Shown here: positions 47,123 to 58,570 of the stretch, piece by piece | Layout of the letters: every line of letters starts with the position of its first letter | Numbering within the stretch: position 1 is the stretch's first letter | Source: Paenibacillus sp. | GTDB taxonomy: Bacteria > Bacillota > Bacilli > Paenibacillales > Paenibacillaceae | Length of the DNA: 64,000 nt | Assembly: GCA_017512705.1 (NCBI GenBank) | Contig: JAFWEX010000105.1 | Span: 1 to 64,000 of the forward strand | Reading direction: 5' to 3' | Made by a program: the position numbers and the translations under genes | Notes under the pieces: generated by a model | The model's input: the letters and a program-made list of their open reading frames with translations, nothing else | What the model was told of the DNA's origin: nothing | The model's database searches: none

Positions 47123-48490
47123 TTGATACATACAATAAGAGTACATATTGAAAAATATATGAGAGAACAAAATCTCAAGTTGCAGCATTTTTCCGATATT
47201 ACAGGAATTAACGTTGGAACATTAAGTGCCATTCTTAAAGGCAACCGGCCGATGTCTATGAACCAACTGGATCAGATCACTTCTGCAATGGGACTAGAAA
47301 AGGGTTTTTTTTATGAAATTTACGGAGTAGAATCCTTCATAGAATCTGCGCCCCACTGGAGACGATTGGAACCATATCTATACGAGTGTGCTGGACTTGG
47401 TAAGCTGGATAGTATACAACAAGTTATTACTCATGTGACGGACGATCGCTCTTATATTGATGAATTATTTGACGTAGCTGAAAGTTTTTTTGCCAGAGGA
47501 TTAAAAGAAGCAGCTCTTATTTTATATGAGTGTGTGGCACACAGTGAGAAGTATCAGCACTCGGAACGATTGGCCTTATGCCAGTACCGCATTTTCCTGC
47601 TCCATAAAACAATCAATAAATTCAATAACCTGAATGCCGCGGTAAAGTTCGAACCCTTTATCGAAAAGTTGAATGAGGAAATACAGCTGGATGCGATTAA
47701 AGATTTAGCTAATTTGTATGGCACGATAAATCTATGGGATAAGGTTTTTGAACTGGCTAATGAATTGATTCTAAGAACTGAATTCCAAGTTCAACTTCAA
47801 TCTATGAGACGAAAAAGAAAAACAAGAATAGCCGCATATCCTTTATTTACTTATAAAGCTTATGCTAATCTGCTCATGGCAAATGTATCTGAAGAACGTA
47901 AGCAATATATGAAAGCTTTGGAGTACACAGATGTTTATGAGGATATTATGGATGGGATTGAGAATCCAACAGAGGAAGAGCAAGAATTAATAGATCGCTT
48001 CAAGGGCTGGGCTGAGGGTAATCGATATTTATACAAAATACTATCAGGTAACTTCGAAGTCTTAAATCGTTACTTGGATTACCTAGATGTTAACCATGAA
48101 GAAATTACAATAGCGTGCACATACATTGTACAGGCGGCTAATCAGTTCTCTTTCAATATTGACCATGCACTAAATAGATATGAAAATTACATTGTACAAA
48201 TTAAAATAGAGAGACATGTAGAAGGTATATATAACGAACAAGCCTCCAATTTTAGATATATACGCTTATTCTACGAATTGGCAAAATATAGATTAAATCA
48301 AAACCAGATCTATCAAGGAATTGATCATCTAATCACTAGTCTTAAACGGTGTGTCTCAAGTAATGACTATATGATGTGTATCAAATGCATTGATTTATAC
48401 GGAAAATATAGAGATCGCGCCAGTAAGACTCAGAAAGAGCAGTATACAAAACTAATAGATAAATTAGGTGTACCGACTTTTCGTTCGTGA
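47123..48490 (+). CDS. XRE-TPR regulator 2
   Basis: About 455 residues, paralogue of regulator 1 over its whole length (HTH LKLQHFSDITGINVGTLSAI; block SAPHWRRLEPYLYECAGL; helical TPR-like body). TTG at 47123 is chosen because alignment with regulators 1 and 4 puts the first residues at IHTIR; a GTG at 47111 lies too close to GGAGG. Composition is AT-rich throughout. Only about 20-30 bases separate it from regulator 3, and no peptide gene is evident there. Confidence 0.78.
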   Translation: MIHTIRVHIEKYMREQNLKLQHFSDITGINVGTLSAILKGNRPMSMNQLDQITSAMGLEKGFFYEIYGVESFIESAPHWRRLEPYLYECAGLGKLDSIQQVITHVTDDRSYIDELFDVAESFFARGLKEAALILYECVAHSEKYQHSERLALCQYRIFLLHKTINKFNNLNAAVKFEPFIEKLNEEIQLDAIKDLANLYGTINLWDKVFELANELILRTEFQVQLQSMRRKRKTRIAAYPLFTYKAYANLLMANVSEERKQYMKALEYTDVYEDIMDGIENPTEEEQELIDRFKGWAEGNRYLYKILSGNFEVLNRYLDYLDVNHEEITIACTYIVQAANQFSFNIDHALNRYENYIVQIKIERHVEGIYNEQASNFRYIRLFYELAKYRLNQNQIYQGIDHLITSLKRCVSSNDYMMCIKCIDLYGKYRDRASKTQKEQYTKLIDKLGVPTFRS

Positions 48491-48517
48491 ATTATCTGGG
48501 AGAGGACGATGAAGACG

Positions 48518-49873
48518 ATGTCCAAAATACGTTTCTATATTGAGAATCACTTAAAGGATAAGGGATATAAACTACAGCAATTTTCTGAAATCGCTGACAT
48601 TAATGTTGGTACATTAAGTGCTATCATCAGAGGAACCAGACTTATTTCAATGAACCAACTAGACCAAATCACCTCTGCGATGGGATTAGAACAGGGATAC
48701 TTTTACGAGATGTACGGTGTTGAATGTTTTATTGAGTCTCCGCCTCATTGGAGAAGATTAGAACCGTATATACACCGTTGCGCTGAGCTTGACAAGCTGG
48801 ATATTATTCAACAAGTCATTATTCATGTGACAGATGATCAATCCTATACTGATGAGCTATTTGATGTAGCAGAGAGTCTTTATAATAAAGGCATGAATGA
48901 ATCTGCACTCATTATATATGAATGTGTGGCAGACAGTGAAAAGTATCAACACTCGGAGCGGTTGGCCCTTTGCCAATACCGTATTTTCCTGCTTCATAAA
49001 ACACTGAGTAAATTTGATAATTTTAATGCCTCAGTAAAGTTTGAACCGTATATTGATAAATTAAATGAGGAAGTGCAATTGGATGCAATTAAAGACTTAG
49101 CCAATGTTTATTGTGCGATACATTTGTGGGACAAGGTCGATGTGTGGTCACGGGAACTAGAACGAAAAGCAGAATTTCAATTGAAATTTCAATCCCGTAG
49201 GCGGAAAAATAAAAAAAGGCTAACAGCCTATCCTCTTTTTACCTATGCAGCTTATGCAAATTTATTAATATCATGCGTTTATGAAGCACGTAAGGAATAT
49301 GAAAAAGCCCTAAAGTATATAGAAAAATACCTGAAGATAATTGAGATTCAGAATCCTACACAAGAAGATCAAAAATTAATAGATTTGTTCCGAATATGGG
49401 GAGAAGGAAGTCAATATGCCTTCGGATTATTGCTTGGTCAGGAGAATTTAATCTCCCCCTATTTGGATTATATTGAAAACAACCCGTTAGAAATATTATC
49501 CGGATTCATAACTATTTTGCAATCGGCTAACCGGTATTCCTTCAACATTGATTATGCTTTGAATAGATTCGAAAATCAGATTAACTTATTCAATACAAAC
49601 ATGCAAATTAAAAGTGGTTATAACGATCAAATGTTAAACTCCATGTATCAAGAATTTTACTATGAATTGGCAAGTTATCAAATAAAAAAACGTAATTATT
49701 CAATTGGAATTGATGCCTTACTTATATGTTTAGATCTCACTTCTTCAAGTAAAGATGATCTGATGTGCGTTAAATGTTTAGATTTATACGGGGAGTATCG
49801 GAGTGAAGCCAATGAAACACAGATGAAAAACTACAAAAATGTAATAGAAAAGTTAAGTTTGCCGACTTTTTGA
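48518..49873 (+). CDS. XRE-TPR regulator 3
   Basis: A 451-residue paralogue (HTH YKLQQFSEIADINVGTLSAI; SPPHWRRLEPYIHRCAELDK; NEEVQLDAIKDLANVY). An ATG nine bases earlier is possible, but alignment with regulator 4 and spacing to GGGAGAGG favour this one. Its middle part is the closest match to the degraded copy at 57518. AT-rich. Cotranscribed with regulators 2 and 4. Confidence 0.78.
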   Translation: MSKIRFYIENHLKDKGYKLQQFSEIADINVGTLSAIIRGTRLISMNQLDQITSAMGLEQGYFYEMYGVECFIESPPHWRRLEPYIHRCAELDKLDIIQQVIIHVTDDQSYTDELFDVAESLYNKGMNESALIIYECVADSEKYQHSERLALCQYRIFLLHKTLSKFDNFNASVKFEPYIDKLNEEVQLDAIKDLANVYCAIHLWDKVDVWSRELERKAEFQLKFQSRRRKNKKRLTAYPLFTYAAYANLLISCVYEARKEYEKALKYIEKYLKIIEIQNPTQEDQKLIDLFRIWGEGSQYAFGLLLGQENLISPYLDYIENNPLEILSGFITILQSANRYSFNIDYALNRFENQINLFNTNMQIKSGYNDQMLNSMYQEFYYELASYQIKKRNYSIGIDALLICLDLTSSSKDDLMCVKCLDLYGEYRSEANETQMKNYKNVIEKLSLPTF

Positions 49874-49907
49874 TAATGATATATCTGGGGAGAGACGGTG
49901 AGAAACG

Positions 49908-51255
49908 ATGTCCAATATACGTTCCTATATTGATAATCACTTGAAAGACAATGGGTATAAACTGCAGCAGTTTTCAGAAATTGTTGACATTAATGTGGGT
50001 ACATTAAGTGCGATCATCAGAAAGAGCCAGACTTATTTCAATGAACCAACTAGACCAGATTACCTCTGCAATGGGTTTGGAACAGGGGTGCTTTTATGAT
50101 ATGTATGGTGTGGAGGGTTTTATTGAATCTGCACCCCATTGGAGACGTTTAGAACCGTTTATATATCGTTGCGCTGAGCTTGATAAGCTGGATATTATAC
50201 AAAAAGTCATTACTCATGTGACAGATGATCATTCATATATAGATGAGTTGTTTGAAGTAGCCGAAGATTTGTATAACAAAGGAATGAAGCAAGCAGCAAT
50301 TATTCTGTATGAATGTGTGTCTGAATGCGAAAAATATCAGCACTCTGAACGCTTGGCTATGTGTCAGTATCGTATATTTTTGATTAGTATGGGATCTGAC
50401 CAAAAAGAAAATATAAGAATTATTTCAAAATTTGAACCTTTTATAGAGCGATTAGATTATGACTATCAATTGGATGCAATTAAGGATTTGGCCAATGCTT
50501 ACTGGGGCTTGCATGAGTGGGATAAAATGAAAGATTTATCTCAAGAACTTGAGAGACGAGCTGACCTGGCTATGAAACAAACTAAAAAGCGTGTATATAA
50601 ATCTCAGTATCCCTTCTTCGTATACAAAGCCTATGCCAACCTACTTTTTTCTAATTATTATGATTACACTAAAAATTATGAAAAAGCCTTAAAATATACT
50701 GATATATATGAGGAATTCATTGAGAATCAAGCAAAAGTTTATGAGGACTATGAAGTTCATCATAAATTTAGAGAATGGGCGAAATTAAACAAATGTTTGT
50801 ATAAAGTCATGATGGGAAAAAAAGAGGTAATCCCTGAATACATTAAATGCATTGAACATCGTGAAGAGGAAATTCTCCATGCGATGGTCAAAATTCTTCA
50901 ATCAGCAAATAGATATCAATATAATATAGATGAATTACTGATTAGGTTTAAAGCTCAGATTGATGATAAATTCAGTGATGAGCGTTCACGAGGAAGATAT
51001 ACTCTACGAAGTTGGTATTATCGAAGAGTAGTGTTATTCTATGAACTGGCCTTTTACTATTCTAACAAGAGGGAGTTTGAACTCGGAGCTGTTTCTCTGT
51101 TAGTAAGTTTAGAGTTAAGTGTTTTTGTCAAAGATGATGTTTTGATCTCAAAATGTGTAAATCTCTATGGGCAGCTTAAGGAGTATTTATCTAATCAAGT
51201 TCATGAAAAATATAAAATCATAATAGATAATATTTATATAAAAGCGAGTTTATAG
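49908..51255 (+). pseudogene. XRE-TPR regulator 4, frameshifted
   Basis: Paralogue interrupted by one extra base near 50021-50027. There the other copies read ATCAGAGGAACCAGA but this one reads ATCAGAAAGAGCCAGA, and the frame shifts inside the HTH. The first frame stops at 50099; the second continues intact from the HTH end to 51255 (PHWRRLEPFIYRCAELDK ... LESQVHEKYK-like end). It may be a sequencing error, a recent inactivation, or a TPR-only product from an internal start. Confidence 0.8.
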
Positions 51256-51451: not shown

Positions 51452-51625
51452 ATGAGAGAACTGAGTATCTTGAAAGACCAGATCGAGCAAGGTCGGCAAG
51501 AGTTAAGTCGCTTGGTAGATCAATATGGGATCCCGAATGTAAAAGTGCTTGAGCAATCTATGGCGTTAGATGAGCTAATTAACGAATATAATCGATTTAC
51601 TTTAGGAATGAGCATGAGGAAATGA
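51452..51625 (+). CDS. Spo0E-family aspartyl-phosphate phosphatase-like peptide
   Basis: A 57-residue helical hairpin protein: KDQIEQGRQELSRLVDQYG, then VLEQSMALDELINEYNRF, the S-x-x-LD motif of Spo0E, YnzD and YisI. Such proteins dephosphorylate Spo0A~P and delay sporulation. AGAGGGG precedes the ATG. It stands between the regulator array terminator and the RiPP genes and has a close relative at 58382. Confidence 0.85.
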   Translation: MRELSILKDQIEQGRQELSRLVDQYGIPNVKVLEQSMALDELINEYNRFTLGMSMRK

Positions 51626-51805: not shown

Positions 51806-52021
51806 ATGAAACCAAGTAAACCTGGTAAAGGCAGTAATAAATATCCCGAGTTGAGTAGCGGTGATTTTGGTGTTGGAGCAATCAGATTTCAAAATCCTCC
51901 AAATTCAGGCGGGGGAACAGGGAACACTGGTAGCTGTGGTGTCAATATAAGCTGTGTACTTTGCTGTTGTTGTGGCAAAGGTGGTGGAGCGGATAATGTA
52001 CAAAAACAAATTAAACTATAG
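51806..52021 (+). CDS. RiPP precursor peptide, azole (LAP/TOMM) type
   Basis: A 71-residue peptide behind AAGGAGGTG. The N-terminal leader is charged and ends near RFQNPP (residues 27-32). The core is Gly-, Ser- and Cys-rich (GGGTGNTG, then Cys44, Cys50 and Cys53-56 as four consecutive cysteines, then GKGGG). A short follower, ADNVQKQIKL, closes it. Candidate cyclised residues are the six Cys and Ser43, Ser49, Thr38, Thr41. The adjacent McbB-, McbC- and YcaO-like genes make conversion to thiazoles and oxazoles the likely fate. Length and Gly/Cys core recall microcin B17; sequence identity does not. Confidence 0.85.
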   Translation: MKPSKPGKGSNKYPELSSGDFGVGAIRFQNPPNSGGGTGNTGSCGVNISCVLCCCCGKGGGADNVQKQIKL

Positions 52022-52051
52022 GACTTTTTTTGATTCCCAATAATTTATTGA

Positions 52052-52097
52052 TTCGAGTGCGGCAATATGCGTATTTAGGATATTAGCCGCACTTGAA
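52052..52097 (+). promoter_or_regulatory. Hairpin between precursor and processing genes
   Basis: TTCGAGTGCGGC with GCCGCACTTGAA, 12 pairs (one G-T), 22-base loop, no T-run behind. The place and lack of T-run fit a transcript-stabilising or partial-attenuation element giving excess precursor over enzymes. Confidence 0.6.
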
Positions 52098-52123
52098 GTT
52101 TAAAGCGGAGGTGCCATATCACT

Positions 52124-53017
52124 TTGATTACAGAAGAGTACACTACGTATACATTGAATAACTTTGTCATCTATGAAATAAACTCAAATGAACTAGTTTT
52201 AATGCATAACTATGGGATAGTGAAAATAAAAGAAGCAAGATTAATAGAAGAAATTAAGAAATGGGATAACAATAATATTAAATCAGTCCATGAAAAAGAA
52301 CTTATAGATGTTTTTCAAGAAGATTATTCAAATGCTATAGCATTTTTAGAGAATAATTACATCTTCATTACTAAAGAAGATGTGAACTTCTCAATAGAAA
52401 AATGCGTTTTCTTAAGTAACAATGATGAAATACTTAAAGTGTCCCAAGAGTTTCTTTTTGAGAACCAAAATATGAAAAATTCCATTGTAAATCTTAATGA
52501 AGAAGCGAATAGCACGCTACTTTCAGAGAAGAATAGTAATACTTTATATGTAGTATTTATGAATCCTTACAGTAAAGAAATGGCCAATAAGATTACTTCA
52601 CTTGTAAGAAAGAGTGAGAATTCAATTTTATTGATGAGTTACACGTATAACAACAATTTTTATATTGATTCTCTTTATAGCCCTCAAGCATCTAATCCAT
52701 GTCATTTTTGCCACATAGGTCACATTGAATCACAATTGCGTGTAGATTCTACTGGGAATATCTCTTACCAGCAAATTATCGATTCGATTTATAAAGATGA
52801 ACCCAAATTCAAGGTTCATACTCCTCTTAACAAAAATAATATTTTGAATATACTCTCGTTATTAAGTAATAAAATAAGTAAATATTTCACTTTAAAAAAT
52901 GGTAGAATAATCCATAATGAAGAGTTGCATGAATGTTCTGTATTTGATCTCCAAACAAATAATTACTATACAGATTATTCATTACATTGGGAGCTATGTG
53001 ATTGCTATGAAAAATAA
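52124..53017 (+). CDS. McbB-like leader-binding/E1-type cyclodehydratase partner
   Basis: A 297-residue protein. The N-terminal ~85 residues have the small winged-HTH-like pattern of a RiPP recognition element. The remainder resembles the adenylate-less E1-like part of McbB. Cysteine pairs C193-x2-C196 (NPCHFCHIGH) and C292-x-C294 near the end would form the structural zinc site. It should hold the precursor leader and present the core to the YcaO protein. TTG start with GCGGAGG upstream. It overlaps the next gene by 11 bases. Confidence 0.75.
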   Translation: MITEEYTTYTLNNFVIYEINSNELVLMHNYGIVKIKEARLIEEIKKWDNNNIKSVHEKELIDVFQEDYSNAIAFLENNYIFITKEDVNFSIEKCVFLSNNDEILKVSQEFLFENQNMKNSIVNLNEEANSTLLSEKNSNTLYVVFMNPYSKEMANKITSLVRKSENSILLMSYTYNNNFYIDSLYSPQASNPCHFCHIGHIESQLRVDSTGNISYQQIIDSIYKDEPKFKVHTPLNKNNILNILSLLSNKISKYFTLKNGRIIHNEELHECSVFDLQTNNYYTDYSLHWELCDCYEK

Positions 53018-53834
53018 ATATGTAAGTCTAGAACATAACACAGTGGAAAGGTCATTCACTGATTACATTTACTCTTCTTATATACCAAAGAAAGTTGAGA
53101 ACTATATTCTTAAATTTCATCAAAGCAGTACTTTGCTAAAGTTGCCTGATTCCAAGCACCAATCCATCGATGATAACGTTATCCCATGGCTTGAATATGC
53201 GCAGTACACAGATATCACTCCTGATTATTACGAACAGAAAATTAATCTTAATACAAGCACAGAAGTGAATGTAATCGGAAGTTACAGATCATTTAACAAA
53301 GAGAGACTGTTCAATTTTGCAGAGTTATCCCAATTATTAAATGATGCTTTTATAAGAGATAAACAAAAGGGGTCTAAAAAATATGGTTCTGCTGGTGCTC
53401 TCTATCCCATAGTTCCGTTGGTACTCGTGTTCCAAGATCATGATACTTTAACAAGAGGTGTTTACGTATATGATGGGATAGAACAAACATTGTTAAAAAT
53501 AAAGTCTTGGGCCAAGGACGAAGCGCATCATATCAAAAAGTATGTCTGTCATGATGCAATGGATCTACCGGAAATTTGTATCGCATATGCAGCAGACCTA
53601 CGCAGATCAATAATCAAATATCATATCAGAGGGTACAGACATGCTCTAATAGAGGTAGGAGCCATGAGCCAAGTGTTTAAAAATTCTCTCCATAAAATGA
53701 GTAAAGGTGTCGGAGAGGTGAGTTGGTCTGGATTCAATGATAACGAACTAACTAAACGATGTGGTCTTAATGTGAGATTGTGTCCAATAGTGATGCTTCA
53801 ATGGTTTGGATATACGGATTCAACAGGAAAATGA
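53007..53834 (+). CDS. SagB/McbC-like FMN azoline dehydrogenase
   Basis: A 276-residue nitroreductase-fold enzyme. GSAGALYPIVPLVLVF is the typical SagB/ThcOx element, ELSQLLNDAF precedes it, and the C-terminal half has the conserved IRGYRHALIEVGAMSQ helix. It oxidises azolines to azoles using FMN. The inner ATG is chosen; it lies within the end of the McbB-like gene, so translation is coupled. Confidence 0.82.
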   Translation: MKNKYVSLEHNTVERSFTDYIYSSYIPKKVENYILKFHQSSTLLKLPDSKHQSIDDNVIPWLEYAQYTDITPDYYEQKINLNTSTEVNVIGSYRSFNKERLFNFAELSQLLNDAFIRDKQKGSKKYGSAGALYPIVPLVLVFQDHDTLTRGVYVYDGIEQTLLKIKSWAKDEAHHIKKYVCHDAMDLPEICIAYAADLRRSIIKYHIRGYRHALIEVGAMSQVFKNSLHKMSKGVGEVSWSGFNDNELTKRCGLNVRLCPIVMLQWFGYTDSTGK

Positions 53835-53844
53835 GGTCGATATC

Positions 53845-54885
53845 ATGTTGTATTTAACAAATCCTCTTCACTTTAATATACCGGAGCAAAAATTTATTAC
53901 TGACGACATATACACATCCTTCTCAAGGATTGGGAACTTTCTTAAAAATGGTTATTTAGGGCCGGATAGTTCCACTGCAATAGATTTTAATAAGCAACAG
54001 TCTCTAATCAAAGCTTTTTCAGAAATGATCGAGAGAAGGGCAATATCTGCCGGGGGCATCCCTTTTGATGAGAAGAGTGTGTACGCTATTAATATGGTGA
54101 ATTCAAGTAGTGTACTTATTGATAAGAAATACTCAACGTATTCATTATCAGGAGAATTCCCAATTGATACTACAGGAACCTCTAGTCATATTTCGTCACA
54201 AAAAGCAATTGTTAGTTCTCTCCGAGAAATTATTGAAAAAAATGCCTTGTATCTATTTTGGTATGGTAAACAAGGCTCTAAAATTAAACTCGATGTATCT
54301 CTGATAAACAAACATAAAATGTTATCTGGATTAATGTATCAAAAAAATAAAGAAGTTCTTTTTTTTATCAATGAATATTTCTATCCCTTAAAGGTAGTAT
54401 TTTGTTTTATTCTTTACAAAAATTTCGTATGTTCTTCTGGGGTGGGTAGCTCTTTTTCCATTGAAGAGGCTATCCTTAAATCCACACAAGAAGCCGTTTT
54501 ATTACAGTGGAAAGAAGAAAGTAATGAACTCGTTGCTATGTCACGCCAAGTGTTCAAGAAAAAATATGAAAATCAATCTGGGATTATTGATTACTTATCT
54601 GTAGGGTACGGAAGTATCTCAACTAGTGATTATGAAAAAACGATGAAAGAATTAACAATCTCCAATTTGTTGAATATACTTCCTGCTTGGGTGGCTGAGG
54701 TATATATGATTCCGCTAAAACAAACGGTAACTACAAAAATTAAATGTATAAAAATATACTCTCCTTATCTTTTTAATCATATTCCTTTAAAAGAGTACAT
54801 TAACCTAAGAAACCCTATGAATGTAAATACGATAAATCTTAACGAGCAAAGCATGTTGAAAATACCTAACTGTATTGTAGTGTGA
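53845..54885 (+). CDS. YcaO-family cyclodehydratase 1
   Basis: A 346-residue YcaO protein starting behind GAGGT. ATP-site elements: AIDFNKQQSLIKAFSEMIERR, SSQKAIVSSLREIIEKNALYLFW and GVGSSFSIEEAILKSTQEAVL, in the family order. YcaO enzymes activate backbone amides with ATP so that Cys, Ser or Thr side chains close into azolines. Gap to the dehydrogenase is 10 bases. A second YcaO follows directly, so division of labour (for example Cys versus Ser/Thr, or thioamide or amidine formation) is possible. Confidence 0.85.
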   Translation: MLYLTNPLHFNIPEQKFITDDIYTSFSRIGNFLKNGYLGPDSSTAIDFNKQQSLIKAFSEMIERRAISAGGIPFDEKSVYAINMVNSSSVLIDKKYSTYSLSGEFPIDTTGTSSHISSQKAIVSSLREIIEKNALYLFWYGKQGSKIKLDVSLINKHKMLSGLMYQKNKEVLFFINEYFYPLKVVFCFILYKNFVCSSGVGSSFSIEEAILKSTQEAVLLQWKEESNELVAMSRQVFKKKYENQSGIIDYLSVGYGSISTSDYEKTMKELTISNLLNILPAWVAEVYMIPLKQTVTTKIKCIKIYSPYLFNHIPLKEYINLRNPMNVNTINLNEQSMLKIPNCIVV

Positions 54886-54905
54886 TAGAGAGGAGAGAAT
54901 ACGCT

Positions 54906-56006
54906 TTGATAAATAATCCAGTTAACGGCACACCTTTTATGATTGAAAGGTTTCATATCAAACAAAATTCATTTCTCCTTGACTATTTTCAGAGTGATGT
55001 TATTACGTATTCTGAGAATGGCCCGCCTGCAAGCGCAATTGATTTTGATAAAAGAAAATCAATCAAAGCAGCAATAGGAGAGCATATAGAGAGGGTATCT
55101 GTTTTTAACAATTATCATAGATTCAGGGATCAGTTAGTAGAGGGAGTCAACATGCTGAATGGTACAATAGAACAATTTCCTCTACATCGTATTTTGTTGA
55201 ACTGGAATGATCCTATACTTAACAAATTAAATTTAGATAATATATATAGCGATACCTGCGGAATGGCCTCTCATGTTAGTTCCTATCAGTCAATAAATTC
55301 TGCATTTTTAGAATTCTTTGAAAGGCAAAGCTTGCTCTTTAGTTGGTTCACTAAATCTCCTGCTAAAAAGATTAATATTGAAGATATAAAATTTATAAAT
55401 TTTCAATCAATTATCCAGATGTCTCGGATACATGTAGATGAGATTTTTATGTACGATATATCGTTGTGTAATGAGGTCAAGGTAGTAATTACAATCGCCT
55501 TTGGAGAAAAAACTAAAGGTGTTGGGATAAGTGCTGATTGGGACTACCAAAGTGCAATAACAGGCAGTTTAAAAGAGCTATTCCAATATATAACTGTGGA
55601 GCAGCCTATAAAAAAATCAAATTATCAAAATACGGAAAACTCGGTTGATCCCTTACTTTACTCTCATTATTTTATGGAGATACTTGGTGTAGATGAATTA
55701 AAAAGCGAGTTCCAATACCTAGAGAAATCAGACCAAGTGCGTGGTGAACTAATAAATGGAGACAAAGCTGATCCTAATGAATTTTATAATACAGTTAAGA
55801 AAATCTCTTTAAAATTGGCAATGGATTTTAATCTTTGTTATATACCAGCTCTTGATAGAGAGTTAAATACAAAAATTGTTAAAATCATTACAAATAAGGG
55901 CTTCCATCACATGTATGCTGCAAAAATAGACCCAACTCAAGTCGAAATCTTGAAGCCTTATAAGAATCGATTGCACAATATTGGGAAAATGCTCCCGTTT
56001 GGATAA
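54906..56006 (+). CDS. YcaO-family protein 2
   Basis: A 366-residue YcaO protein from a TTG with GAGAGGAG 8 bases upstream; an in-frame GTG overlapping the previous stop is less well placed. Family elements are recognisable (AIDFDKRKSIKAAIGEHIERVS, SSYQSINSAFLEFFERQSLLFSWF, GISADWDYQSAITGSLKELFQY), but the sequence is clearly diverged from YcaO 1. No TfuA-like partner is present in the window, which argues against simple thioamidation. Confidence 0.82.
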   Translation: MINNPVNGTPFMIERFHIKQNSFLLDYFQSDVITYSENGPPASAIDFDKRKSIKAAIGEHIERVSVFNNYHRFRDQLVEGVNMLNGTIEQFPLHRILLNWNDPILNKLNLDNIYSDTCGMASHVSSYQSINSAFLEFFERQSLLFSWFTKSPAKKINIEDIKFINFQSIIQMSRIHVDEIFMYDISLCNEVKVVITIAFGEKTKGVGISADWDYQSAITGSLKELFQYITVEQPIKKSNYQNTENSVDPLLYSHYFMEILGVDELKSEFQYLEKSDQVRGELINGDKADPNEFYNTVKKISLKLAMDFNLCYIPALDRELNTKIVKIITNKGFHHMYAAKIDPTQVEILKPYKNRLHNIGKMLPFG

Positions 56007-56021
56007 ATTGGAGGTTGTATT

Positions 56022-56783
56022 TTGAAAATAACTCGTGAATACTTCCGGCTGTTTACTAAAATGATGTTAAGCAACAAAGTAGCATTCGTATGGTATCTGT
56101 TATTTCCCCTCATTGCATTTTTTATTTTTAACTACCAATGGTTTACTCAGGTGCCTGAGATTAATGAGTTCTACATCCAAACGAGTGTATTTGTTTCATA
56201 TATTATCTTTGTCATGTCCATCGATGTGACGACCAATCTGATCTCTTTAAGGGAGAGCGGTTTTTTCAAGATGTTCAAATTTATCTCGGGTAGTAAATAT
56301 CCTATTATTTGGGGAAAAGCTCTCAACCAGATGGTATTTCTATTCCTGACCATTCTTCTGTTCTCGCTAGTATCGGGAGTGATATTCTTGGGTAGCTTTG
56401 GACAGGTTGTTTTATTTCTCGCCGTTGCTTTAACAAGCTGTATATTGGGGTCTGCAATGGTAATTTTATTAACGCTTGTCCTCATGCTTCTTCCAGTAAG
56501 GCAAGAGTCGCTGAATGCGGTGGTCAGTATGAGTTTACTGGTCATGTTTTTTCTATCTGCAAAGGGGCTGGCGTATTCAACAGAGTATGGTCTGTATCTG
56601 GTGTTTATTAATCCAATGGATTATGTTCGGAATTTAACCTTCTTAATAGCAGAATGGTTTATGGAAAGTCCTTTTCCACATTTGAGTCTGATCAATATGA
56701 GCTTTATTACACTTTTTTATGTTACCTGCGGACTCATCGCACTTAAGTTTGTGAAAGTCATATCCAGAACACATCGAACATAG
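56022..56783 (+). CDS. ABC-2-type exporter permease
   Basis: A 253-residue protein with six hydrophobic segments of the ABC-2 class (start KITREYFRLFTKMMLSNKVAFVWYLLFPL). TTG start with TTGGAGG upstream, 15 bases after YcaO 2. Together with the next gene it should export the modified peptide or protect the producer. Note that GC content rises compared with the YcaO genes. Confidence 0.82.
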   Translation: MKITREYFRLFTKMMLSNKVAFVWYLLFPLIAFFIFNYQWFTQVPEINEFYIQTSVFVSYIIFVMSIDVTTNLISLRESGFFKMFKFISGSKYPIIWGKALNQMVFLFLTILLFSLVSGVIFLGSFGQVVLFLAVALTSCILGSAMVILLTLVLMLLPVRQESLNAVVSMSLLVMFFLSAKGLAYSTEYGLYLVFINPMDYVRNLTFLIAEWFMESPFPHLSLINMSFITLFYVTCGLIALKFVKVISRTHRT

Positions 56784-56794
56784 TAGGAGGATCT

Positions 56795-57502
56795 ATGATT
56801 AAAATTGAAGATTTGAGCTTTTCTTATCACAAAGCTTCTCGTCAAAATCTGGATCATTTACATGTGCAGTTTCCCGAAGGAACAATTAATATGATCATTG
56901 GCAAAAATGGTTCTGGCAAAACGACTTTATTTGATCTAATCGCTGGTGTGATCAAGCGCCCACCAGAAATACAAGGTATTCCTGATGAGAAGGAAATCAT
57001 ATACCAGTTGCAGGGTTTGTTATTTCCTCTAACCTTAAAGGCCAAGGATCTTTTTCGTTTTTTTCTGTACTCTGATCACTCCAACCGTATTGAAGTGAAC
57101 AATGAACCTTATGTAGATGATGATATGAGTCCAGCTGAGGTTGATTTGGTACAGCGTGTATGGAACATGGAGTTTGGGCAACTATCTGTAGGGGAAAGGC
57201 GCTACATTTGCATTCTGGCCATCACATTAATGAAGAGAAAGTTGTACATCTTCGACGAGCCGCTAGCGGGAATTGATCCTGAAATGCGTTATCATATTTT
57301 GAAAAGAATTGAAAAGCTGGCACTTCATAATGATTGCACTGTACTGGTCTCGAACCATCACTTGCAGGATATTGCAAATATCCAGTGTATGATGCATTTC
57401 ATTCATCAAGGTAAAATAACCTTTAGTGGGTCATATGAGACATTTATTGAAATGGGAGATGGAGTGAACCCTGACTTAGCGTTTCTGAAGCAGGTGAAAT
57501 AG
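56795..57502 (+). CDS. ABC exporter ATPase
   Basis: A 235-residue ATPase: Walker A IGKNGSGKTTLFDLIAG, a variant signature LSVGERRY (usual LSGGQ), Walker B LYIFDEPLAGIDPE, and H-loop VLVSNHHLQDI. It starts behind AGGAGG, 11 bases after the permease. The last ~110 bases occur again, degraded, at 58024. It is the last gene of the azole-peptide operon. Confidence 0.88.
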   Translation: MIKIEDLSFSYHKASRQNLDHLHVQFPEGTINMIIGKNGSGKTTLFDLIAGVIKRPPEIQGIPDEKEIIYQLQGLLFPLTLKAKDLFRFFLYSDHSNRIEVNNEPYVDDDMSPAEVDLVQRVWNMEFGQLSVGERRYICILAITLMKRKLYIFDEPLAGIDPEMRYHILKRIEKLALHNDCTVLVSNHHLQDIANIQCMMHFIHQGKITFSGSYETFIEMGDGVNPDLAFLKQVK

Positions 57503-58023: not shown

Positions 58024-58131
58024 ATGGGTTTTATTCATCAAGGTAAAATAACCTATAGCGGATCGTATGAGAGTTTTATTAAAATGGGAGATGGAGTGAA
58101 TCCTGACTCGGCGTTTCTGAAATAGGTGAAA
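58024..58131 (+). pseudogene. Duplicated 3' fragment of the exporter ATPase
   Basis: About 108 bases matching the last ~110 bases of the gene ending at 57502 (FIHQGKITYSGSYESFIKMGDGVNPDSAFLK) with roughly one change in six, including AAATAG in place of AAGCAG, which brings the stop forward. It shows that a second exporter copy once stood here. Confidence 0.85.
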
Positions 58132-58381
58132 ACATAAGGGTATCCTGAATTAGTGATAGTTTGTGATTTTCAGTGAGATATGGATGGAGCACGATATATA
58201 GCTTTACTAAAAAATAGCTCATCCATATGTTGTAGGAGATTGTGAATATTGAACAATTTCCAAAATGCTAAACTTATGAAACTATACTTTTGCAAACAAT
58301 CATTTTGATTTTGCAAAGGAATAAATTATGAATTTTTTGGCAATGTATCCTAAAATAATATAAAAAGAGGGGGTGCATGCT

Positions 58382-58570
58382 ATGGGTGAACCGATGCAGA
58401 TCAAAGATCGAATTGAGCGGGATAGGCAGAAGTTACGTCAGTTGGCGGAAAATCATGGCATGCAGGACGACAAAGTCCTCAAACAGTCCATGATCTTGGA
58501 CGAATTAATCAATGAATATTATCGATTCCAATATAAAAAACATATTATGAATAGACAGCCGATTGCTTGA
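58382..58570 (+). CDS. Spo0E-family phosphatase-like peptide, second copy
   Basis: A 62-residue relative of the 51452 protein (RIERDRQKLRQLAENHG, VLKQSMILDELINEYYRF), with the S-x-x-LD motif. ATG at 58382 has AGAGGGGG 8 bases upstream; a GTG nine bases earlier overlaps that site. The terminator follows inside and past the stop. Confidence 0.85.
   Translation: MGEPMQIKDRIERDRQKLRQLAENHGMQDDKVLKQSMILDELINEYYRFQYKKHIMNRQPIA

Follow-up and report, generated by a model that had tools for sequence, protein, structure and literature searches.

Microcin B17, encoded in E. coli by mcbABCDEFG with one YcaO protein and with McbE and McbF conferring export and immunity, is the closest characterised system to an operon that we describe here from a 64,000-nucleotide stretch of DNA (hereafter the window) of a Paenibacillus-group genome. 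A second point of reference is the lactazolicins of Lactobacillus, Enterococcus and Streptococcus, for which the accessible part of PMC7136475 describes a PxP-less YcaO (D1) with a PxP-bearing one (D2), two further genes, X1 and X2, and precursors of 83–106 residues with 8–12 Cxxx repeats. The operon lies at 51806–57502, entirely on the plus strand, and is intact, with seven genes in the order A-B-C-D1-D2-E-F; this is the gene order of the E. coli plasmid operon mcbABCDEF (locus L049) with one additional YcaO gene. Judged by its genes, it is a Gram-positive mcb-type operon for an azole peptide, probably a bacteriocin. The extra YcaO, D1, probably modifies the peptide chemically in a second way, perhaps at a conserved tail.

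Two YcaO paralogues in Bacillota mcb-type loci

The D1/D2 pair is a family trait, since 26 of the 27 Bacillota loci have D1 (window included; absent from L042) and none of four Gram-negative loci does (L033, L049, L050 and L051, with no McbB match in L050). These loci, with same-contig repeats set aside, formed the examined set, and the gene set is not a chance assembly, because McbB genes with D1 and/or D2 adjoining were found in 26 Bacillota loci besides the window. D2 is likewise present in 26 of the 27, the contig of L026 ending past D1; it is cut by the contig end in L032, which also gave no match for C, and is split over two frames in L023. The loci came from TIGR04424 surveys of overlapping genome draws (5 of 197 relatives, 7 of 392 from the order, 8 of 398 from the class, 2 of 398 from the phylum, 1 of 38 from the order of genome G462, 3 of 19 from the genus of G316 and 10 of 394 from the family), a genome-contig scan (16 loci) and a plasmid collection (six records, one from Lactiplantibacillus plantarum left out). 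They belong to Paenibacillus, Brevibacillus, Bacillaceae, Sporosarcina and lactic acid bacteria, some being on plasmids. The premise of an earlier reading of this DNA (the original prediction), that microcin B17-like clusters use one YcaO, thus fits the four Gram-negative loci, whereas nearly all Bacillota McbB loci depart from it by carrying D1, nearly always with D2.

As the original prediction proposed, the two YcaO proteins are diverged, each forming its own clade. In a tree of 50 YcaO rows, from which near-identical repeats and pieces shorter than 200 residues were excluded and which held no enterobacterial McbD rows, the 25 D1 rows formed one clade (support 100/100) and the 24 D2 rows another (89/70). 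When three enterobacterial McbD rows were included in a quick tree, the three groups stayed separate, with Shimodaira–Hasegawa-like approximate likelihood ratio test (SH-aLRT) values of 100 for D1, 73 for D2 and 98 for the third. A profile search of solved structures returned McbD as the best match for both proteins, at 4.7e-22 for D2 and 1.9e-11 for D1. By sequence, D2 is the McbD counterpart and D1 an old paralogue of D2; D1 may have arisen before or after the split from Gram-negative McbD. Against the nearest relative, L013 (Nei–Gojobori method, NG86, one pair), the ratio of nonsynonymous to synonymous substitution rates (dN/dS) was 0.06 to 0.30 over the seven genes, with 0.30 for the precursor, 0.15 for D1 and 0.21 for D2. 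Given the old clade and the low ratio, we reject D1 as a recent tandem copy or a decaying gene.

In the joint alignment, the YcaO motif residues E, E, R, D, E, E and E, which we take to bind ATP and magnesium, are present in 25 of 25 D1 rows and in 23–24 of the 24 D2 rows, and 13 columns, motif acids included, are invariant in 24 D1 rows. All 25 D1 rows carry EKN at a site where D2 has ER (24/24) and then Q (23/24) and McbD-type proteins have ERQ (4/4). The C-termini also differ. D2 ends in PF[PGAS] in 22 of 24 rows and in LFP or LFA in the other two; many relatives end in IPFP, and the LPFG of the window protein is a variant of the terminal PxP, which has a role in azoline-forming YcaOs according to the accessible part of PMC7136475. 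None of the D1 rows ends in PF[PGAS], and two (L028, L048) end in PMS. A Cys stands within the last seven residues of D1 in 23 of 25 rows (not in L009 and L030), just past the position at which D2 and McbD terminate in PxP.

These patterns bear on whether D1 is an enzyme at all. It could instead be a non-catalytic or regulatory partner of D2, either a pseudo-enzyme or a complex-shaping subunit, as McbBCD has been solved as a complex (PDB titles) and the groupings in the D1 and D2 trees look similar by eye. However, the motif acids of D1 are invariant, its ratio in the one pair compared indicates purifying selection, and L042 manages without it; we regard such a role as rather improbable.

A conserved precursor tail and the possible role of D1

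Of the 27 Bacillota loci, 23 carry homologous precursors upstream of B; a profile built from 20 of these 23 newly found only L014, L030 and L044, together with extra copies. The leader motif FGxG is present in 25 of 28 precursors of D1-bearing loci, the deviants being L009, L030 and one of five L027 precursors, and is also carried by the precursor of the D1-less L042. After the core comes a tail composed of G-x-A, a few residues and then Lys or Arg; all 28 precursors tested have it, and they represent 22 of the 26 D1-bearing loci. The core itself varies, with CCCC at one extreme and only one Cys next to a Ser run at the other. The single-Cys precursors (L024, L026, L029, L044) retain the tail, whose conservation exceeds that of the azole substrate residues. 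The FGxG motif together with the G-x-A...K/R tail is a better family signature than a run of four cysteines. That run, which the original prediction called unusual, was rejected as the novelty, as it varies within the family and has a precedent in the gallolytisin precursors, whose core is Cys4-X-Cys4 in the accessible part of PMC4603692. In Sporosarcina sp. NCCP-2222 (L027, 7639–8923), five tandem precursor open reading frames have varied cores and an identical GSSQAK tail.

Three loci serve as natural experiments. L042 (G316) has no D1, and its single-contig genome gave just one YcaO match. It groups with the D1-bearing P. alvei locus L023 in three trees, with support of 98/91 for D2, 98 for B and 97 for C, and therefore D1 was most likely lost. 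Its precursor has no tail (0/1) and ends in SCSSSSCSSCSLGGGK (SLGGGK), with the Cys/Ser core still there; reading of three frames gave no tail hidden by a frameshift. The other two loci, L028 (Virgibacillus) and L048 (G462, of the same class and far from L028 in the trees), have the order B-C-D2-B'-C'-D1, so that D1 stands in a unit with its own B and C. Both C' proteins have lost the Lys-Tyr motif (replaced by LH and VD) and the [PG]SAG motif, while Lys-Tyr is kept in 29 of 31 C rows, including the C of L028 and of L048. The two B' proteins, which may represent a deep copy, cluster together (SH-aLRT 95) in a quick tree with long branches. The motif loss in the B'-C'-D1 units suggests that the D1 reaction may need no McbC-type oxidation.

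Taken together, we propose a scheme whose catalytic roles are all predictions from gene content, homology, conservation, tree topology and motif losses. B would bind the FGxG leader and hold the complex, D2 would use ATP to convert core Cys, and possibly Ser or Thr, to azolines, C would oxidise these to azoles, and E and F would export the product and perhaps also give immunity. D1, by the same ATP chemistry as D2, would make a second backbone change that is left unoxidised, with the conserved tail as its substrate or docking signal; a thioamide, an amidine or an unoxidised azoline are candidate products. We see the case for this division, with core azoles made by D2, B and C and a non-oxidised change linked to the tail made by D1, as evenly balanced. 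The second backbone change, already suggested in the original prediction, is plausible because D1 lacks the azoline-type C-terminus and its own C' has lost its motifs. A bolder version, which we consider unlikely, is that D1 founds a McbD-derived class of non-azole YcaOs that, with McbB, installs a thioamide or amidine in the Gly-x-Ala...Lys tail. In two genomes the partners of D1 would then be a separate McbB and a McbC scaffold that is redox-dead, the C-terminal Cys of D1 might be used, and the product would be a hybrid peptide that combines core azoles with a tail carrying another backbone change. Azoles and an amidine ring occur together in klebsazolicin, which is made with a single YcaO (PMC8442711, accessible part).

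D1 might also be a second azoline-forming cyclodehydratase that has B and C in common with D2 and differs only in the residues it cyclises, such as certain Cys or Ser runs. McbD is the solved structure that matches it best in sequence, most loci have a single B and a single C for both YcaOs, and bottromycin clusters divide the work between two YcaOs, which carry out different reactions and act without a partner protein in the accessible part of PMC8442711. On the other hand, D1 lacks the PF[PGAS] end, the C' motifs are lost in both B'-C'-D1 units, and the D1-less L042 retains its Cys/Ser core, which makes this explanation a doubtful one.

The predicted fold of D1 brings in another candidate. 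The AlphaFold model has a mean predicted local distance difference test (pLDDT) score of 81, with residues 1–46 below 50, and Foldseek finds a plain YcaO fold. Archaeal YcaOs, which have a role in thioamide formation, rank slightly ahead (best E 2.3e-11, template modelling (TM) score about 0.6) of McbD (7e-10, TM 0.56), which has the top identity among the rows shown, 20%. At rank 11 (E 1.8e-10) is MusD, 7u58, deposited under the title 'YcaO-mediated ATP-dependent peptidase activity in ribosomal peptide biosynthesis'. This ranking does not decide function. If D1 were an ATP-dependent peptidase, cleaving the tail or the leader and making no backbone change, oxidation would be unnecessary, the lack of a TldD match in the host genome and of a protease gene in the window operon would fit, and L042 would have no tail to cut. 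L011 and L012 nevertheless keep D1 despite an M16-type protease gene, and the best sequence match of D1 is McbD, not MusD; a peptidase role at the tail is a live alternative, but seems quite unlikely to us.

Several points weigh against the proposed non-oxidised change by D1. Its link to the tail rests on the single D1 loss in L042. The tail pattern was defined after inspection and was broadened for the GSSQA of L027, and four of the 26 D1-bearing loci lie outside the tail count, L010, L028 and L048 having differing precursors and L032 none that was found. The C' proteins may be decaying leftovers, and their motif loss, as seen in sequence, does not exclude other roles. A motif change alone is also no proof of full loss of function, because the streptamidine dehydrogenase has HY aligned with the KY of McbC (PMC8442711, accessible part). 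No TfuA match was found among the operon proteins, and the D1 model does not separate azoline-, thioamide- and peptidase-type YcaOs. The single loss event and the pattern set after inspection also favour the possibility, which we hold to be a real but lesser one, that the tail merely signals export or cleavage or acts as a follower, with no connection to D1, and that its absence from L042 is a coincidence. That the tail is kept even with one-Cys cores speaks against this. An independent tail signal would be compatible with the other explanations given above.

Even so, the proposed role of D1 in a second, non-oxidised change can be approached from two new leads, its own B' and motif-lost C' in two loci and the tail-less precursor in the only D1-less Bacillota locus. 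With D1/D2 paralogues in one operon, only one of which has an azoline-type C-terminus, the family is a direct test bed for the question of what makes a YcaO form azolines or another change, and it includes one natural D1 loss (L042) and two natural separations into B-C-D units (L028, L048).

Gene content and surroundings of the operon

The features of the operon are listed in Table 1.

Table 1. Coordinates of the seven genes and the RNA hairpin in the window
Feature	Position	Strand	Basis or character
Precursor A, 71 residues	51806..52021	+	DFGVGA leader motif, Gly-rich linker, Cys44/50/53-56 core, C-terminal tail GGGADNVQKQIKL
RNA hairpin, between A and the McbB gene	52052..52097	+	Folding energy
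B, McbB family protein, TTG start	52124..53017	+	TIGR04424 1.9e-68
C, SagB/McbC-type dehydrogenase, Lys-Tyr motif intact	53007..53834	+	TIGR03605 2.3e-19 (below cut-off), motif alignment
D1, second YcaO	53845..54885	+	PF02624 1.5e-9
D2, McbD-type YcaO, end LPFG	54882..56006	+	PF02624 5.1e-12
E, McbE-like export permease	56022..56783	+	Profile from Bacillota relatives
F, McbF-like ATP-binding cassette (ABC) transporter ATPase	56795..57502	+	PF00005 3.8e-15

The precursor is as the original prediction described it, with its Gly-rich stretch and cysteines, and the gene set that it listed (McbB-like, SagB/McbC-like, two YcaOs, permease and ATPase) is borne out, the permease by the profile of its relatives. 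B scores 231 bits against TIGR04424 (cut-off 65), and a profile of B relatives matches McbB of PDB 6gos best among solved structures (1e-17). C falls slightly under the cut-offs of TIGR03605 (69.5 bits) and PF00881 (23.2 bits); its KY motif aligns with that of E. coli McbC, and the KY of McbC-type dehydrogenases is named catalytic in the accessible part of PMC8442711. The profile search that had been suggested for both YcaOs gave 38 bits for D1 and 46 bits for D2 against PF02624 (cut-off 25.7), and at E <= 0.001 the genome, 94.8% complete, has no further YcaO match. The permease has no Pfam or NCBIfam match, and the profile of its Bacillota relatives also picks up the McbE genes of L049–L051 (42–61 bits); the F profile finds the McbF genes of the same loci (131–140 bits). 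Permease E is present in 18 of the 27 Bacillota loci, most of the others having a larger ABC transporter open reading frame instead. Choosing ATG 53007 as the start of C and ATG 53845 as that of D1 gives overlaps of a few bases between B and C and between D1 and D2, in line with the close packing noted earlier; the D2 start is uncertain, either GTG 54882 or a TTG slightly downstream.

The hairpin region (52019–52125) has a folding energy of -31.2 kcal/mol (z -3.6) and is absent from the terminator list of a simple scan; the strong hairpin may be attenuator-like. A promoter scan gave 33 against 31.5 in shuffles. Scans of the operon proteins against Pfam and NCBIfam revealed no protease and no McbG-like gene, and a PF01523 search of the host genome gave no TldD match. 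TfuA had no match among the seven operon and three upstream proteins scanned, downstream genes being outside the scan. With regard to leader removal, the operons of some relatives include a gene for an M16-type protease, seen by eye in L042 and annotated as pitrilysin family in L011 and L012.

Upstream, 47126–51255 holds tandem regulator genes with helix-turn-helix and tetratricopeptide repeat domains, RRNPPA-like by look (Pfam below cut-off); the copy adjoining the operon is split over two frames (49908–50030 and 50026–51243), and its L013 relative is unbroken. Small Spo0E-like genes flank the operon at 51452–51625 (PF09388 8.4e-12) and 58373–58570 (by eye), and similar open reading frames flank it in L013. 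The end of the ATPase gene (~103 bp, 57397–57499) recurs at 58029–58131 with 87% identity. A same-species genome (G314) has no TIGR04424 match, and the operon is unaligned there except for about 96 bp of the ATPase end; an operon-free same-species strain (L056) shows this ~96 bp match. The repeat and the L056 remnant suggest that an earlier copy of the cluster at this site was lost or replaced. A phage origin is unsupported, as D2 had no match in phages and viral contigs gave 101 pattern matches with no confirmed McbB relative.

Two other loci deserve mention. On the Geobacillus plasmid pBSO1 (L059, 894–2271), a regulator with a helix-turn-helix domain, followed by a small secreted-looking peptide open reading frame, adjoins the azole precursor, and the two resemble a peptide quorum-sensing pair. 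L033 (6110–9117), on a metagenome-assembled contig from Oligoflexales, combines an McbB-C-D set that has one YcaO with a precursor-like open reading frame containing CCCCC.

Comparison with described azole peptide systems

The window shares with microcin B17 the order A-B-C-D-E-F and homologues of McbB, McbC, McbD, McbE and McbF. The leaders are alike in their FG motif (EFGVVLSV in McbA, FGVGAI in the window), and both precursors have a Gly linker ahead of the Cys core. Of the features of a microcin B17-type operon, the McbB, the McbC-type protein with Lys-Tyr and the McbD-type YcaO are all present, whereas the single YcaO is not, D1 being inserted between C and D2. A product that acts on gyrase and an McbG-type immunity protein also mark such operons; no McbG-like gene turned up among the operon proteins scanned. 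The window operon further differs in having no pentapeptide-repeat protein, its host genome in having no TldD match, and its precursor in the C-terminal tail, which is absent from two McbA sequences. TfuA-type thioamide systems have a TfuA partner beside the YcaO, which was not seen among the proteins scanned here; TfuA-free thioamidation is compatible with the operon. Gallolytisins resemble the window in that their cores contain stretches of four consecutive Cys; in the accessible part of PMC4603692 their D protein is closest to plantazolicin D, and McbB is unmentioned in the gallolytisin section.

A literature search that included the accessible parts of PMC10676384, PMC9576775 and PMC10352776, with most subscription papers outside it, gave no description or product for the Bacillales branch and no function for D1. 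The arrangement is nonetheless already known in kind, as lactazolicins also have a PxP-less D1 next to a PxP-bearing D2 (PMC7136475, accessible part), and the claim of an undescribed product family is weakened. L010, on an Enterococcus plasmid, has a 92-residue precursor with eight Cxxx repeats, not Lys/Arg-rich, and two extra genes at the right places, and in the tree its D1 joins the clade of the window D1 and its D2 that of the window D2; from its sequence it looks like a candidate lactazolicin cluster, with the extra genes as putative X1/X2. In the window, by contrast, the seven named genes fill 51806–57502 and leave no X1 or X2, and the 71-residue precursor with Cys44/50/53–56 is not of the Cxxx-repeat type described in the accessible text. 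Because both the X1/X2 genes and the precursor type differ, the window is best placed as a sister variant of the lactazolicins, with which it shares the D1/D2 pair, and not as a member.

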